Below, one piece after another: positions 55,264-64,000 of a stretch of DNA of 64,000 nt. The notes under the pieces are model-generated. The model searched no databases. It was not told the DNA's origin and saw only the letters and a list, made by a program, of their open reading frames with translations. The stretch comes from Primulina eburnea (taxonomy: Eukaryota; Streptophyta; Magnoliopsida; Lamiales; Gesneriaceae), in assembly GCF_022965805.1 (NCBI RefSeq), contig NC_133103.1, positions 29,998,329 to 30,062,328 on the forward strand. Reading direction: 5' to 3'. The number at the start of each line of letters is the position of its first letter. Position 1 is the first letter of the stretch. The position numbers and the translations under genes were made by a program.

Positions 55264-55661
55264 TGTTGCACTCTCAAGAGCAGGTTATCCACAAGTAGTA
55301 TAATTCGTTGAGTCCGAATATCGTATCCACAGGGAAGCTAAGGTAATTACAAGTCCACTACAATGTCTTTTTGTTTTTGTTTTTATTTTATTTTAATGGT
55401 TTGAATCTTTAATTGGTAATTTTTAATTGTTCAAATTTTAATTTAAGTAGTTGAGATTAAATGATCCACTCTTGGTATTTTAATAAAGTTAACATTAATG
55501 AACATTATTGAAATCCACTTAATAAAATGGTTCCAATATATATTAAATAATCACATTTTTATTATGTTATATATTATTATCTTATAAGTATATAATATAT
55601 ACCAAAACTTGTAAATGTTGTCAAGTATTTATTGTGCTATATATATATATTTGTAAACACT

Positions 55662-56050
55662 AAATCAAGGTTCCCACTTTAAATGGTTGGTAAACCAAAC
55701 AATCATTTAAATGGTACCAAGAAATTAATATTATGATATTAATATATAATAAATCAAGGCATCCACTTTAAATAGTTGGTAAAACCAAAAAAAAAATTTA
55801 AATGGTACCAAGAAATTAATATTATGATATATTCATATATAATAAATCAAGACATCCACTTTAAATGGTTGGTAAAACTAAAATAACATTTAAATGGTTC
55901 CAAGAAATTAATATTATGATATAATCATATAATAAATCAAGGCATCCACTTGAAATGGTTGGTAATATCAAACTAACATTTAAATGGTTCCAAGAATTTA
56001 GTGTAACATATAGCAACAATAAATCAAACTTCCCACTTATAAGTAGGGTA
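55662..56050. repeat. Tandem array of a ~90-bp AT-rich unit
   Basis: Units beginning AAATCAAG start at 55662, 55751, 55844 and 55934, with a partial fifth at 56021. Each includes TCCACTT, AATGGTTGGTAA, CATTTAAATGGT and CCAAGAAATTAATATT. Steps are 89, 93, 90 and 87 bp. Degenerate pieces occur near 55525 and 56413. Confidence 0.9.
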
Positions 56051-56351: not shown

Positions 56352-56911
56352 CCAAATTTGGGGAGACAACCACAAATAAAATATTAATTTTGACACATAA
56401 GTCTTCATTGGTGTTCCAAGAAATTAATATTTTAATACACATCACTTTTGAAAATCTTCCCATATGAATTTTCTTCTCCACATAAAAACAAACATGTAGA
56501 TATCTGAGTTGTTTGAATCGTGGTATATTTTTTTGAACCATTTGACCAAGTGAGAGATATGGTCAAAATACTAGAGCATGGTAAAACTGCCACTTCTTTG
56601 GTAACTTTTATTGTTGCTTAATTTGATCCCACTTGTGAGAAGATTTTTATCTCATGCTTGCCACCAATATTGTAGATATTAACATCAACTTTCTACCGGT
56701 CCAAGAATCATCTTAATGCCATTTGCAACGCCAAGTTTATTCTTATTTTATCGAACCTGTATAAAATAGTAAAAACTTGTAATTACACAACAACTTATAT
56801 TTTATGCAATTTATTATAAAACATATTATATTTAAAAATTTAATAAAACAAAAACTATATATTTATATTATAAAACATTTAATTAATTTACAATTTTCTA
56901 TCTTTATCACA

Positions 56912-58083
56912 CTCTCCAACTAGCTTATTGCTAGTCCCTAGCAATTTAACCGTTAATAGCAACATAAAACATATTGATTAATTTAAATAGAAATTTAATC
57001 AGAACTATCCAAGTGTTTAAATTAAATTTAAAACTGTCAAAGTTATATCAAGATCATTATAATTATAATTTATGAAATAATCTGAACAGATCAGTTCAAA
57101 GCTTATTTTCAGGTAGTTAAATGAAATGGCCTTCAGAAATTCCTAGTAAGAATCTCAACTCCATATTCTCACAGGTTAATAAGTGTTTCAATTTATGGGA
57201 ATGATTTCTCTCATGGAGTTGGAATACAGATAAATGCTCAGGAAAATGGTTTACAGAATGCAGACAGACAAACGAGCCAAACTAATCAAAAGATAGGAAA
57301 TCCATTGATTTAAAATCCAGTTCTTATTATATATTTTTTCCTGATTTTTTTTACATCATTTAATCAGACCAAGTTTATGCTTCTTGACCACATATTTATT
57401 TAATTTGTACAATATATTTCTCTATTTATTTCCTTTTTTTCTTTTTTTTTATTTGTATTTTTATGAGAGATAAATGGCTCGCAGCATATAACTTAAAAAT
57501 TACATAAATCTTCAACATCTTTTTTTTTATTCAGGAAATATCAATTTTTTTAAAAAAATAAGAACACAAGATCTAAACAATAGATAGCTTCTCTGATGAT
57601 CAATAAAGGCTCGCAAGCTGTTTTCTCAATCCTCTCCACTCACTCACAAAATATGCTCTTATCAGGTATATCTTGGGCCATATACTTTAATAACTGATTT
57701 TATCACAATGATTAATCATTCAAAAAGATTTCATAAATCATATTTTTATAGTGATCAAAATATTAAAATCGACTTTTTTTTTTCAAATAAAAATTTAAAC
57801 ATCCTAAGATAGATTATTACAATTTCTAATCTAAACCTTTCAAACATGTAATATATGATATTTTTACAAAAATTACTAAGATACAAACAATAAATATGTT
57901 TTTATTTTTAAAAAAAAATTTTAAAATTTTTTTTTAAGTTTGTTCTCCCCCAATCAGAATATGACATTGTCCCTAATGTCAAAATAACTATTAATAAAGA
58001 GTGCATAATGAAAGAGATATCAACTGGAATTTTATTGAAGATAACAAACTGAAACAAACGCAAACCAATCCACGATTTTTGAA
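56912..58083 (-). other. Athila-like 3' non-coding region
   Basis: 1.2 kb without a gene. The polypurine tract GTTGGAGAG (56912-56920) precedes the LTR, next to the palindromic GCTAGGGACTAGC. At 57942-57982 the minus strand reads ACATTAGGGACAATGTC followed by GATTGGGGGAG. This resembles a phrase I recall downstream of pol in Athila-like elements and supports that the LOG-like ORF lies inside the element. Confidence 0.6.
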
Positions 58084-58722
58084 TCAATGATCCAACTTTA
58101 TTTTCTTACTGCTTGATTGCGACCAATTGATATTTTTTATCATCGGATCCGGCTTATGAACAAAAGCTTCCAAATCATCAATTAATTGGTCGGCAGTCGA
58201 AGCACAGATGAGCATCCGTCGTGAATTTTCTGAAATGAAATTCTGTTCCACAGCTTTATCAAGAAATGTCAAAAAACTGTCATAATAATTATTGATATTC
58301 AACAAGCCCACAGGTGTATTATGGATATTAAGTTGTGCCCAAGAAACAGTGTGAAAAATTTCTTCTAATGTACCAAAACCACCTGGTAGTGCGATAAAAG
58401 CATCAGAATTTTCAATTATTTTGGTTATTCTTTCATACATAGAAGAAACTTTTAATTCTTCCCCAATCGTAACACCTGTAATATTTCCTTCAGCTAAAGC
58501 TGTAGGAATAATACCTAAAACCTGACTACCTCCAAGATGAGCAGATGTTGAAACAGATCCCATTAACCCAATATTACTTCCCCCATATACCAAGTGAAAT
58601 TTTCTCTCAGCCAATATCTTTCCAAGTTTATTCGCTGCTTCTACAAATACTTCATTTTTTCCAGAACTCGACCCACAAAATACACAAATATTTTTCAATG
58701 TTTGTGCAGAGGATCCAACCAT
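58084..58722 (-). CDS. LOG: LOG-like cytokinin riboside 5'-monophosphate phosphoribohydrolase ORF
   Basis: From the ATG at 58722 the ORF gives 212 residues, the usual length of plant LOG proteins (about 210-230). Family marks in order are ICVFCGSSSG near residue 12, LVYGGSNIGLMG near 44, GIIPTAL, an MYER segment with the expected Arg near 98 and the signature PGGFGTLEE at about 113-121, then WAQLNIH and PVGLLNI. LOG enzymes release active cytokinin bases from nucleotides, in cytosol and nucleus. Plant LOG genes have several introns but this frame has none, so it derives from a spliced copy. Its residues differ from canonical LOGs at several places (YGGSN for YGGGS, KII for MAR), so activity is uncertain. 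The frame is open 21 codons upstream to a TAG at 58788-58786. It could also be a diverged LOG-fold protein with another substrate. Confidence 0.85.
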   Translation of the reverse strand: MVGSSAQTLKNICVFCGSSSGKNEVFVEAANKLGKILAERKFHLVYGGSNIGLMGSVSTSAHLGGSQVLGIIPTALAEGNITGVTIGEELKVSSMYERITKIIENSDAFIALPGGFGTLEEIFHTVSWAQLNIHNTPVGLLNINNYYDSFLTFLDKAVEQNFISENSRRMLICASTADQLIDDLEAFVHKPDPMIKNINWSQSSSKKIKLDH

Positions 58723-58785
58723 GTTTTTACTTTCTTTTTGGTAATTTTCCTCTGGTTTTTCGTCCAGAAACGGCTTCAACGCCTT

Positions 58786-59330
58786 CTATGAGTCGAGGAT
58801 ATGCTTCCCATCCAATTTTCTTATAAATTGGCAAACATGGTCTTTTTTAGTCGGATTCCTAAGACTATGACGCTCATCTTGAAATTGTTTCCATAAACGG
58901 AGAAGTTCAATATACACATGTCCACTAGAATGCGTCTCAAGAGTCAATAAGATGTTATCTAAAGACTCCTTACTCAGCCCATTCTTAATGAAACCATTTT
59001 TATCTTCTCTGTTATCGGAAACACATTCCAAAGATCTGCATCGTTTGTCACAAGTCCATTTTGCACACTTATGACAAACCCTAACCTTTTGGCCCTTCGT
59101 TTTTTCGCATAAGTGCTTTCTCCTAATCCAGACAAATACCGAATGAGCAATGATTGTGGAACTTCTCCTCCTAATAGGACCTTAGCTTCTATTACAAGAC
59201 GAATATCTTCTGGAATTCCTTTTTGCATTAACAATCTCAATCTTTCACACCAACCTGCATAAATATTTCTTAGAACTTTTTCAGAAACAAAAGGAAAATA
59301 TTTACAAATTTTTGAGAGATTTTCATCCAT
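58786..59330 (-). pseudogene. Unrecognised ORF between integrase and the LOG-like ORF
   Basis: The ATG at 59330 opens 118 codons (MDENLSKICKYFPFVSEKVL; GWCERLRLLMQKGIPEDIRL; LIRYLSGLGESTYAKKRRAK). The reading passes by a one-step shift near 59030 into a frame with LLTLETHSSGHVYIELLRLW and VCQFIRKLDGKHILDS. That frame ends at a TAG (58788-58786), in phase with the LOG frame two codons later. An original product of about 180 residues, or a fusion to LOG, is possible. It is helical and charged, without membrane segments. It occupies the place where Athila elements have an env-like ORF, but I see no similarity to one. Confidence 0.55.
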
Positions 59331-59503
59331 TTTGAAAAGAAAAGAAATGATTTTTTTTTTATTTTTGTATCAGCAATTGTGAGAAACTGATTTAACCGAA
59401 TATGAGAGTCATGGAGTACCGTTATCCGCCATTTAACCGGGAAAATAAAAAGATTAAGGAAAACTGAAATAAAAACAAACAAAATTAAATGCAACATAAA
59501 AAT

Positions 59504-60550
59504 TTAAGGATCAGAAAGGGAAATAAACTCTTCTTGAAAGATTTCATTTTCCAAAAATGGTTTAAGTCTTTGTCCATTCACTTTAAAAACATCATCATTT
59601 TTAGGATTTTCAATATCCACAGCTCCATAAGGATACACATGCTTTACAACATATGGGCCTGTCCATCTTGATCGTAATTTTCCTGGGAATATGTGAAGTC
59701 GAGAATTATAAAGCAAAACTTTTTTACCAATCTCAAAAGATTTTCTAAGAATTGTTTTATCATGAAATGATTTGATTTATGCTTTATAAATCCTTGAATT
59801 CTCATACGCATCATTTTCTGAGTTCATCAAGTTCATTAAGTTGCAATTTGCGCAATTTGTTGCAATCATCCATGCTTGAATTAAAAGTTTTGATCGCCCA
59901 ATAAGCTTTATGTTCCAATTCCACAGGCAAATGGCAATGTTTTCCGTAAACCAACCTATAGGGAGGCATATTCAATGATGTTTTAAAAGCTGTTCAATAT
60001 GCCCAAAGTGCATCATTAAGTCGCAAAGACCGATCTTTTCTATTTGAGTTAACAGTTTTTTCCAAAATTTTCTTTATCTCCCTATTAGCTAATTCAACTT
60101 GTCCATTTGTTTGAGGATGATAAGGAGTAGTTACTTTGTGAGTAATACCATATTTTTTCATTAATGAAGCAAATGGTTTATTAACAAAATGAGTTACCCC
60201 ATCACTTATCATGGCTCGAGGAATTCCAAATCTACTAAAAAATTTTCTTTCAAAAATTTGATGACGATTTTATGATCATTTGTTCGACATGGAATTGCCT
60301 CTATCCATTTGGAAACATAATCAACTGCAACTAAAATATACAAGTATCCAAACGACGGTGAAAAAGGTCCCATAAAATCAATTCCCCAACAGTCAAATAT
60401 TTCAATTTCAATGATAGGATTAAAAGGCATCATGTTTCTTTTTGAAATCGCACCCAATTTTTGAAAATTTTCACAGATCTTGCAGATTTCGTGGGTGTCT
60501 TTAATTAAAGTGGGCCAATAAAATCCACACTACAAGATTTTTGCAGCCGT
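59504..60550 (-). pseudogene. Athila-like integrase (broken)
   Basis: Fragments in three frames give [31 protein letters not shown] and [14 protein letters not shown] (first catalytic Asp). [20 protein letters not shown] (second Asp) and [20 protein letters not shown] (third acidic residue) follow, and finally the C-terminus LHIFPGKLRSRWTGPYVVK and FKVNGQRLKPFLE. Shifts occur near 60457, 60210 and 59990. In phase breaks between the parts show long decay. Confidence 0.88.
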
Positions 60551-60609: not shown

Positions 60610-61514
60610 TTACCTCATTGTCGGGTATGCAACGTCGAAAAATTTGATCTGGATAATACTTGAACAGATACGGATCATCCCAATAAATTTTTTTACCTCA
60701 TTCAAAAATTTTCTTTTATCTTGGGAACTCCATTGCGGTGGCATTTTTCCTGTCACAAGAAAATTTACTATGTTAGCTAACCAAGGTGTAGTAGTAACTG
60801 AAAATAGATGTTCATCAGGAAAATAATCGTTAATTGGTGTCATTTCACAAGATGATCCTGTTACTAATCTCGATAAATGATCGGCTACGACATTCTCGGT
60901 TCCTTTTTTATCTTTGATCACAATGTCAAATTCTTGGAGAAACAAAATCCATCGTATCAGTCGTGGCTTTGCATCCTGTTTGGTCAACAAATATCTAATA
61001 GCAGAATGATCAGTAAACACAATAGTCGTTGATCCAATCAAATAAGAACGAAATTTATCTAATGAAAATATTACAGCAAGTAATTCTTTTTCAGTTGTGG
61101 AGTAATTCATTTGAGCATTGTTTAAAGTTCTACTTGCATAATATATTACGTAAGGCTTACCGTTTCTTCTTTGACCCAGTACTGCACCGACTGCATAATC
61201 ACTCGCATCGCACATAATTTCAAATGGTAAAGACCAATCAGGAGGTTGCATGATAGGAGCTGACGTTAAATGTCGAATCATTTTATCAAAAGAATTGTGA
61301 CATTCTTGAGTCCACTCAAATGCAGTGTCTCTTTGTAACCTCTTGTTAAGAGGTTACAAATGGTTTTAGAGATTGAACTAAAGTCCTTTATAAACATCCT
61401 ATAAAATCCAGCATGTCCCAAAAATGAGCGAATTTCTTTAATGGTTTTTGGAGGGGGTAAATTGGCAATGACATCAACTTTGGCTTTATCAACTTCAATT
61501 CCATGAGATGACAC
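60610..61514 (-). pseudogene. Athila-like RT end and RNase H (broken)
   Basis: The RT thumb (IKEIRSFLGHAGFYRMFIKDF) at 61278-61514 is followed after a shift by RNase [59 protein letters not shown] and [10 protein letters not shown] gap with a shift and stops near 61515-61570 separates it from the RT core. Confidence 0.88.
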
Positions 61515-61567: not shown

Positions 61568-62574
61568 TTAAATAAGACCTTTTTCCTCGCATCTTTTCAA
61601 AACTGTTTTCAAATTTTCAAGACAATTATCAAATGTATTCCCAAAAACAGTTAAATCATCCATGAAAATCTCTAAAAAAATTTCAACCATGTCGCTAAGA
61701 ATGCTTAGCATACATCTTTGAAATGTTGCTGGGGCAATGCATAATCCAAATGGCATCCTTCTAAATGAAAATGTTCCAAAAGGACATGTGAATGTAGTTT
61801 TATCTTGATCTTCGAGTGGAATGAGAATTTGATAATAACCTGAATATCCATAGAGAAAACAGTAGTATGGACGACCTGCTACTCTTTCTAAAATTTGATC
61901 CAAAAATGGTAATGAAAAATGATCTTTTCTAGTGGCGTCATTAAATTTTCTATAATCAATACACATCCGCCAACTAGATGGGACTCGACTTGTTAACAAT
62001 TCACCTTTTTCATTTTTTATCACTGTGATGCCAGATTTTTTTGGAACTACATGTGTTGGGCTTACCACTTACTATCAGAAATAGGGTAGATAATCCCAAC
62101 ATCAAGTAATTTGAGAACTCCAATTTTCACAACATCTTTCATGTGTGGATTTAATCTCCTTTGTAGTTGTTGAGATGTTTTTGAATTTTCTTCTAAGTGA
62201 ATTTTGTGAGTGCAAATTAGAGGATTAATGTCCTTGAGATCTTTTAGTGTCCAACCAATTGCATTTTTATGTCTTTTAAGCATATCAACTAATTTACCTT
62301 CTTGATCACTTGCTAGTTTGGAAGAAATTACCACCGGATATGTTTCATCTTCTCCAAGAAATGCATGCTTCAATTCTTCTTGCAAGGGTTTTAACTCCAA
62401 TATGGGTGGTTCGTCTTTTTCATCATATTTTGCATCAAATTCTTTCTCTGATCCTGGTAACGAGTGATACCTGATAAAATCATCAAGATCAATTTCAATA
62501 TTTTCTTTAACAGTTTCAATTGAACAAGTATCTAATTGATCACGAATACTCCATTCTTGAATGTTTTCTTCCAC
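61568..62574 (-). pseudogene. Athila-like reverse transcriptase (broken)
   Basis: The first frame (62062-62574) ends RRLNPHMKDVVKIGVLKLLD and YPISDSKW. A single missing base near 62064 explains the shift to the next frame. It continues with VSPTHVVPKKSGITVIKNEK, WRMCIDYRKFNDATRKDHF, CPFGTFSFRRMPFGLC and the catalytic FMDDLTVFG. The order and wording are those of the Athila lineage. Confidence 0.9.
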
Positions 62575-62625: not shown

Positions 62626-63130
62626 TTACTTACAAAGATTAAAAATATTGAGCTCCAAGGTCATGTTACCAAATGACAACTTCATTATTCCATTCCTGCA
62701 ATTTATAAGAGCATTAGAAGTTGCTAAAAATGGACGACCCAGAATTACAGGAATTGCATTACAAGCTTCGATAGGTTGTGTATCTAAAACTATGAAATCG
62801 ACAGGATATACAAAGTTATCAACTTGGACCAACACGTCTTTTACCATACCTCTTGGCACTTTAACAGATCTATCGGCAAGTAAAAGTGTTACCGAAGTAG
62901 ATTTTAACTCGCCTAGATTGAGTTCGTGATAAACTGAATATGGAAGTAAATTCACACTAGCTCCAAGATCAAGCAAGGCTTTTTTAATCTTTCGTTCTCC
63001 AATAATACATGAAATAGTAGGACAACTAGTGTCTTTGTATTTCAAAGTATTATTATTTTGAATGATTTCACTTACTTGTTGATGTGAATCTTTGTACGAA
63101 CGAATAGCAAACACGATTAAAATCGAATCG
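62626..63130 (-). pseudogene. Athila-like protease (truncated upstream)
   Basis: The frame carries the aspartic protease region: KKALLDLGASVNLLPYSVYH (active site D-L-G in place of D-S/T-G) and VILGRPFLATSNALINCR near the end. A TAA at 62628-62626 ends it, but the same frame goes on into the RT linker. Upstream of about 63130 the match stops where an unrelated LTR begins, so gag is missing. Confidence 0.82.
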
Positions 63131-63460
63131 TGCCCTCAATTCAGTAACGAACAAAGAATCGTTGTTGTCCCGATCTTTTGAATCAAGTATTTGGAGTGGG
63201 ATATTCACCTCTAAATTATAAAACTTAGCAATAAATATTCACGAATAAACAATTGAAAAACATACGAACCTTCAAAGAACTTGCCCTTGACAATCCGTAT
63301 GAAATCAACCGACAAACACCACAAAGTTAAAAACTTTGATAAGTTTGATTTTGATTACAAAGCAAAGAGCCTTGAAAAGCTTGAGAGAAAATTCTCAAAA
63401 GTTTGATAAACTCAATAATAATCTGAAAAAAAGTTGTCCAAAATTTCGTGCAAATATGTC

Positions 63461-63470
63461 TATATATTAG
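63461..63470 (-). promoter_or_regulatory. TATA-like site downstream of the box array
   Basis: The minus strand reads CTAATATATAGAC. The distance and orientation relative to the boxes match those seen in the Gypsy-3 LTR. Confidence 0.5.
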
Positions 63471-63545
63471 AAAAGATTGCAAATCTAGTTACCAAAATAA
63501 TCAAAACTCTAACTAGGAAACTAGGATTTTCTCGAAACTGACTCG

Positions 63546-63780
63546 CGCTCGGGCGGTAGAATTTGACCGCTCGGGCGCGAGGCTTCTGTACTATTCGCGG
63601 TCGGGCTGTAGAATATGACCGCTCGGGCGCGAGGCTTTCTGGAATTTTTCACCTTGGACAGTAAGTGTGGCGCTCGGGCGGTAATCTTTGGCCGCTCAGG
63701 CACCGATGCTTCTGGACTCATCTTCATCTATCAAGGACAGTAAGTGTGGCGCTCGGAAGGTAATCTTTGGCCGCTCGGGT
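63546..63780. repeat. Array of GCTCGGGCGG boxes in pairs
   Basis: TCGGG cores or variants begin at 63549, 63571, 63601, 63623, 63674, 63696, 63753 and 63775. Spacings are 22, 30, 22, 51, 22, 57 and 22 bp, so there are four exact 22-bp pairs. A 79-bp unit is tandemly duplicated (63656-63734 and 63735-63812). On the minus strand the array lies about 75 bp upstream of the TATA-like site. Confidence 0.88.
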
Positions 63781-64000
63781 GCCGATGCTTCTGGACTCAT
63801 CTTCATATATCACTTGAATAATGTTACTTTGGATCCCAAACTCACTCCCATGCATCAAGAACCCTCCAGCACTTTGCACCTCGCTTGTAAGTCCTTCCTC
63901 CTTGCTCATAAGCCCCTGCAATGCTTCCTTTAATCTCTTTAATCGTCCCCTCATTATTGGTCCCTCCGGCAACTCTAAAGGGTCCCACGCTTTCCTTGGG

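Follow-up and report, generated by a model that had tools for sequence, protein, structure and literature searches.

A putative host-manipulation pair, a NABP-type zinc-finger gene and a LOG-like gene, in a decayed copy of an abundant Athila-type LTR retrotransposon

Steinbauerova 2011 is said to describe, in its abstract, two Athila-like elements with LOGL4-like ORFs. For most accessory ORFs of plant retrotransposons the function is not known; here, two with recognisable domains travel together. That gypsy elements of Citrus and Populus can carry a LOG (YgdH) domain has already been published in PMC9289625, the consulted part of which also cites Steinbauerova 2011. The second of our two genes recalls a class of viral proteins, the NABP/CRP type, for which a basic stretch beside a Cys zinc finger is described in the consulted portion of PMC8742542. 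Viral CRPs appear in excerpts of PMC8742542 and PMC12172455 as silencing suppressors and pathogenicity factors, and one of them is presented in the latter as a transcription factor that induces hyperplasia.

We analysed a stretch of 64,000 nucleotides of Primulina eburnea DNA (hereafter the window) and the 812-Mb assembly that holds it. Our main reading, to which we assign a probability of about 0.72, is that the window contains one decayed copy of an Athila-type LTR retrotransposon that is present in high numbers and has, at its 3′ side, a NABP gene, an intron-like piece and a LOG phosphoribohydrolase gene, and that the two genes would serve as a pair for host manipulation. The gene order integrase-NABP-LOG-polypurine tract is repeated across the family, and the features of the window copy are listed in Table 1.

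Table 1. Features of the element copy in the window (positions are those of the window; L001 is a contig described in the text)
Feature	Position	Strand	Remarks
Aspartic protease region	62626..63114	-	pol piece
Reverse transcriptase region of pol	61568..62068	-	
RNase H region of pol	60610..61281	-	
Integrase region	59504..60457	-	several frames (frameshifts, stops)
Integrase-NABP spacer	59331..59500	-	non-coding; recognisable in L001 and six compared family copies
NABP/CRP-type frame, 5′ part	59082..59330	-	ATG at 59330
NABP/CRP-type frame, 3′ part	58786..59121	-	stop 58788-58786; frameshift from 5′ part
Junction without GT...AG piece	58742..58743	-	exact; piece present in 29/30 family copies
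LOG-like ORF	58084..58722	-	frame open 58785->58084; first ATG 58722-58720; 212 codons + stop at 58084; PGGFGTLEE; Arg99 and Glu122 equivalents present
LOG-like ORF, residues	58084..58722	-	Ile/His at Lys100/Glu125 positions; YGGG loop Gly->Ser
Polypurine-tract block	57947..57972	-	GGACAATG-N11-TTGGGGG; end of internal region
3′ LTR region behind polypurine block	56633..57946	-	~87% with gaps vs family copies; bounds approximate, match clipped where fetched loci end

The pieces of protease, reverse transcriptase, RNase H and integrase follow one another in the order of gypsy elements, upstream of LOG and in the same orientation, with the 3′ LTR region downstream. The arrangement is thus as an earlier note on this DNA had described it, and the full-length LOG-like frame within an Athila-type gypsy element is real; we add the strand, which that note did not give. 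We take the element to be of the Athila type from the likeness of its reverse transcriptase and integrase pieces to those of that clade. A second RNase H (aRH), the mark of Tat according to the consulted part of PMC6317226, gave no match in the window pol pieces scanned, the frames of which are broken. The position of LOG inside the element follows from what lies downstream of it. The spaced motif of the polypurine block has one match in the window and none in 100 shuffles; with a spacing of 8-14 allowed, it is found at the same place behind LOG in 30/30 fetched family copies and once in L001, and all 30 of these copies also match the window in the sequence that follows the block, which we take as the 3′ LTR. 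Significance is confined to this spaced motif, since the polypurine region as a whole reached a local alignment score of 71 against a shuffle maximum of 72. A 5′ LTR was not found in the 27 kb past the right end of the window, where the sole match measured 158 nt at 79% identity. Directly past the protease region, window positions 63200-64000 and the locus L002 look by eye like another gypsy element in the same orientation, which suggests that the 5′ part of the LOG element is interrupted, lost or outside the window.

Elsewhere in the window, four repeat pairs are LTR-like and may mark further nested elements (711-2307/24837-26419, 26929-27879/53190-54156, 34833-36971/40720-42843 and 42840-43692/48655-49525). 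A repeat of ~90 bp stands in four head-to-tail copies at 55639-56027, in AT-rich DNA past the 3′ LTR. No host gene was recognised by eye among the window ORFs of at least 110 aa.

The LOG-like frame is not a chance ORF, as its matches to PF03641 (E 4.4e-36, 124.4 bits against a cut-off of 27) and TIGR00730 (E 1.4e-49, 168.3 bits against 96.35) demonstrate. Aligned over 193 columns, its product shares 48% identity with LOG3 of Arabidopsis. In pol, three frameshifts and three stops fall within the 1475 nt covered by L001, and about four more frame breaks, read from the frames, lie farther upstream; the NABP frame carries one frameshift and the LOG frame no lesion. The contrast that the earlier note drew between a pol with at least six lesions and an intact LOG hence holds as a count, but the zero is not striking: its probability is 0.07, 0.11 or 0.17, depending on the lesion rate chosen, and we rejected the open frame as a remarkable feature in itself.

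A useful outside comparison is L001 (DAIEQH010000041.1), a contig of 3330 nt with pol, an open NABP frame and the polypurine block, and no LOG, whose first 2389 nt align with the window at 72%. It is filed in a bacterial MAG record of the genome reference set and reads as plant retrotransposon DNA; given its gene content, it must be plant DNA. A search of the MAG behind it with P0007 returned no match and is uninformative. Being an element of like kind without LOG, L001 indicates that LOG is not essential, and comparison with its layout places LOG between NABP and the polypurine tract. Upstream of its polypurine block, at 2515-2540, L001 also has pyrimidine-rich sequence that ends with CAG and could serve as a splice acceptor.

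A second accessory gene, missed in the earlier note, lies between integrase and LOG. The profiles that its relatives match (PF05515/PF01623) mark the broken frame found there as a zinc-finger protein like the NABP/CRP of carlaviruses. The window frame as query retrieved 32 relatives, many of which came with PF01623 and PF05515 already assigned, and an alignment of 14 sequences as query gave 925 matches, with records from Populus, Xanthoceras, Rhamnella and Acer among the matches listed. At E 0.001, PF05515 is present in 80 and PF01623 in 78 of 99 aligned relatives (134 fetched), and at least one of the two profiles scores above gathering in 8/8 relatives scanned singly. The two pieces in the window are themselves below the cut-off (16.4 against 20.9 bits for one, no match for the other), and the likeness to the viral proteins is a local profile match of ~90 residues. 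A basic stretch, KKRRAK, and four Cys are conserved at 90% or more in the 99 relatives. The stop of the 3′ part looks like the natural end of the protein, since the nearest relatives, P0122 and P0143, share the end residues. A fold model from 14 sequences (pLDDT 48) was too poor for a fold search, a sequence search of the PDB with NABP gave no matches, and IMG/VR scans with LOG and NABP queries yielded no confirmed match. By analogy, we infer that the element protein would do the same as the viral CRPs.

Between the window and L001, dN/dS is 0.32 for NABP (bootstrap 0.19-0.50) and 0.10 for pol (0.05-0.15, from the 472/500 unsaturated resamples, one pol piece being saturated). The 3′ end of NABP together with the spacer past its stop (window 59000-58744; L001 2160-2389) has a DNA identity of 0.78-0.84 per 90-nt bin, which equals the level of the integrase core, with 72% for the two sequences overall; dS is 0.54 in the NABP 3′ part against 1.9 in pol. 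This conservation hints at a cis-acting RNA element.

To describe the LOG pocket we used the residue numbering of PMC4979012, seen in part and transferred by motif alignment. The window protein has the PGGXGTXXE motif, with the catalytic Arg and Glu present, and the pair Arg99 and Glu122 is retained in 112/120 LOG relatives. Lys100 and Glu125, named in the consulted text among the residues of the adenine/prenyl site, are both present in Arabidopsis LOG3, in LOG8 and in the Pseudomonas enzyme. On the other hand, both are replaced in 114/120 relatives, by Ile and His in the window, and both are kept in the other six, five of which are Xanthoceras records. By alignment, this coupled change suggests an altered base pocket. 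Cytokinin activation, the role given to the protein in the earlier note, is hence not to be assumed: the product is a LOG-family protein for which the label "cytokinin-activating LOG" is unwarranted.

A LOG tree was built from 41 of the 120 relatives and the window, with two LOGs of Arabidopsis and one of Pseudomonas added (45 rows). In it, the window groups with 40 of the relatives in a single clade (98/99) that excludes the Arabidopsis LOGs and contains clusters confined to Paulownia, to Reevesia, to Diplodiscus and to Populus; the tree contains no host LOG of the relatives' own species, and the host is known for the named rows only. For the relatives from other genera, a location in retrotransposons is presumed from their multiplicity and, for Citrus and Populus, from print. 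We rejected a recent capture of LOG, which had been proposed for this locus, on the basis of this single clade and its genus-private clusters.

Two substrates can be weighed against these data. It is a serious possibility, if short of even odds, that the element LOG has switched to another purine nucleotide, for instance to counter a defence based on a modified nucleotide or on a nucleotide signal. The two pocket residues are lost together or kept together while the catalytic pair persists, and the relatives form clusters private to several plant genera, both of which would suit a changed substrate, although hydrophobic replacements could still take prenyl groups. More doubtful is that LOG is a plain cytokinin-activating enzyme, which would raise cytokinin in the cells that express the element and favour meristematic cells that produce the germline. 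The PF03641/TIGR00730 family match and the retained motif and catalytic residues agree with it, and the viral CRP tied to hyperplasia (consulted part of PMC12172455) would point the same way. Against it count the replacement of Lys100 and Glu125 in nearly all relatives and a score of 113 bits where the NCBIfam cytokinin-LOG equivalog demands 300, in a scan that covered the window protein.

Whether the LOG-like ORF is common to the element family, a question raised in the earlier note, is answered by the genome itself. It holds 1464 LOG candidates, of which the best 150 scored all span residues 1-212 at 97-99% identity to P0001 and 148 have no stop. NABP has 1329 candidates, with no stop in 144 of the best 150 scored. 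The scored copies are the best by score, so the open fractions are biased upward; the element has at least 150 copies in this genome, and the true numbers may differ from the candidate counts. Among the 30 best-scoring LOG loci, 29 have NABP and 28 have pol upstream, and all 30 have the polypurine block at the same place. Starting from NABP instead, LOG sequence follows at 10/10 loci; it is full-length and ungapped at five, one of which has a stop. The 30 LOG copies represent 16 different DNA sequences, one of which is shared by 13 copies, a sign of a recent burst of the element. Six copies compared with the window have mean identities of 94-98% over the integrase end, the spacers, NABP, LOG and the stretch from LOG to the polypurine block, and 92% in the LTR (gaps excluded); since LOG is as similar as the rest, it travelled with the element. 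At one place (G000:C15:11054333-11061099), four NABP places follow one another every ~2.1 kb; part of the element may be arrayed in tandem there.

Outside this genome, LOG and NABP matches occur on equal-sized contigs of the same source: two pairs of at least 3000 nt (8723 and 4511 nt) against 0.02 expected, and five pairs of all sizes against 0.99 expected. The pairs at 905, 905 and 1161 nt are too short for both full ORFs and thus coincidental. The test drew on 72/120 LOG rows and 113/120 NABP rows, chromosome-scale, NCBI-named (one kept) and contig-less rows being set aside, and equal size is no proof of one contig. LOG and NABP may hence be together elsewhere too.

Within the family, nonsynonymous segregating changes are depleted in NABP at LOG-chosen loci (pN/pS 0.33, 18 distinct sequences, p 0.02) and in LOG at NABP-chosen loci (pN/pS 0.56, five distinct copies, p 0.04); for LOG at LOG-chosen loci the value is 0.22, biased by the choice. 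This is moderate evidence, from sequence comparison, that the family keeps both genes. The benefit to the element that had been considered for LOG finds support in the same depletion and in the 148 open frames among the 150 best-scored copies. It is unlikely, then, that LOG and NABP are functionless passengers amplified with a successful element. In favour of passengers, LOG is missing from L001; of the ten NABP-chosen loci, five have no full-length LOG free of gaps and another carries a stop; and the window copy itself changes as if neutral. Against them count the NABP dN/dS of 0.32 between window and L001, the depletion of nonsynonymous changes among copies, and one LOG clade across several plant genera.

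Between NABP and LOG, 29 of the 30 LOG-chosen copies contain a piece GTGA...TTTCGCAG, 141-154 nt long in the 26 measured, whose acceptor-like end lies ~20-25 nt before the LOG ATG; the exception, L024, is without the upstream region. The same pattern finds the piece in 6/10 NABP-chosen copies. Three others (L036, L039, L042) fall outside the pattern yet have the full-length NABP-LOG distance, and L043 has a deletion. In the window the piece is absent exactly, the junction 58743/58742 joining the donor- and acceptor-side sequences of L020 with no ambiguity, and the simplest reading is that the window copy probably derived from reverse transcription of a spliced RNA. An ordinary deletion is quite improbable: the piece-less state is known from this one copy, but the missing segment ends exactly on GT and on AG after a pyrimidine-rich stretch, its placement is unambiguous, and the ACC that follows the junction matches L020.

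The window copy itself looks like a decayed relic that has changed as if neutral since insertion. Its LOG differs from P0001 at 11 residues; 8 can be polarised with P0005 and 8/8 changed in the window (p 0.004). Five of the 11 changes hit columns conserved at 90% or more, where 4.15 are expected by chance, and one falls in the YGGG loop. Compared with the 30 copies, the window LOG has 11 private substitutions, of which 9 are nonsynonymous (neutral expectation 78%). We therefore rejected selection on the window copy, and with it the co-opted or selected LOG frame that the earlier note had entertained. An origin of the frame by exaptation of a host gene, or by separate insertion of a LOG into the element, is accordingly very remote, for although the frame is open amid a broken pol and its pairwise dN/dS against the 16 distinct copies is below 1 (0.37-0.63, a range to which both the evolution of the family and the window's own branch contribute), it has diverged from the six copies to a similar degree as the integrase end, NABP and the spacers, all polarisable changes lie on the window copy and reach conserved columns about as often as chance predicts, and its private substitutions are nonsynonymous at the neutral rate.

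Returning to the reading of a retrotransposon with a host-manipulation pair, the most likely use of NABP and LOG would be for the element to handle its host. NABP might act like the viral CRPs, through silencing suppression, transcription activation or both. LOG would hydrolyse a nucleoside 5′-monophosphate. This could be a cytokinin precursor, in which case dividing cells would be favoured, or another purine nucleotide, plain or N6-modified. The acceptor-like site shortly before the LOG start hints at expression from a spliced RNA, in the manner of retroviral env. A fuller version is tentative, and we would not wager on it: a two-gene cassette for host manipulation in which NABP is a silencing suppressor or transcription activator and LOG, with its remodelled pocket, has a new nucleotide substrate, regulated splicing being used as for a retroviral accessory gene and the whole helping the element to spread to well over a hundred, perhaps more than 1000, copies.

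The pair joins a class of plant-virus pathogenicity proteins with a class from hormone metabolism. If it acts on the host, plant retrotransposons use a virus-like control of their hosts, and the role of additional ORFs becomes directly testable with two small proteins. Counts of plant LOG genes and RNA-seq assignments may, moreover, include element-borne LOGs that perhaps do not make cytokinin.

As far as our literature searches show, the virus-type NABP partner of LOG is new: in the parts of the literature consulted we met no published report of NABP in LTR retrotransposons, and neither the LOG pocket change nor the intron-like piece was met in the print examined. With the gypsy elements of Citrus and Populus (PMC9289625) our element shares a LOG-like ORF; it comes from another host genome, and in the consulted part of that paper we met no NABP partner, pocket change, intron or comparable copy number. 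The gypsy elements of Phalaenopsis with an AlkB m6A demethylase, from the consulted part of the same paper, likewise acquired an enzyme with a domain also known from flexiviruses, but the enzyme and the lineage are others, and that enzyme was tested in vitro, while the functions proposed here are putative. The NABP of carlaviruses and betaflexivirids (PF05515, PF01623) is, like ours, a small protein with a basic stretch followed by a Cys zinc finger; the version described here, of ~182 aa, is carried by a plant LTR retrotransposon and continues beyond the matched region in a long, conserved C-terminal part. Finally, the env-like ORFs of Athila and other additional ORFs of plant LTR elements, in the portions consulted of PMC7264820, PMC6317226 and PMC11728184, are also sense ORFs between pol and the 3′ LTR. 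Here that place is taken by NABP and LOG, both with domains that can be recognised, together with an intron-like piece.
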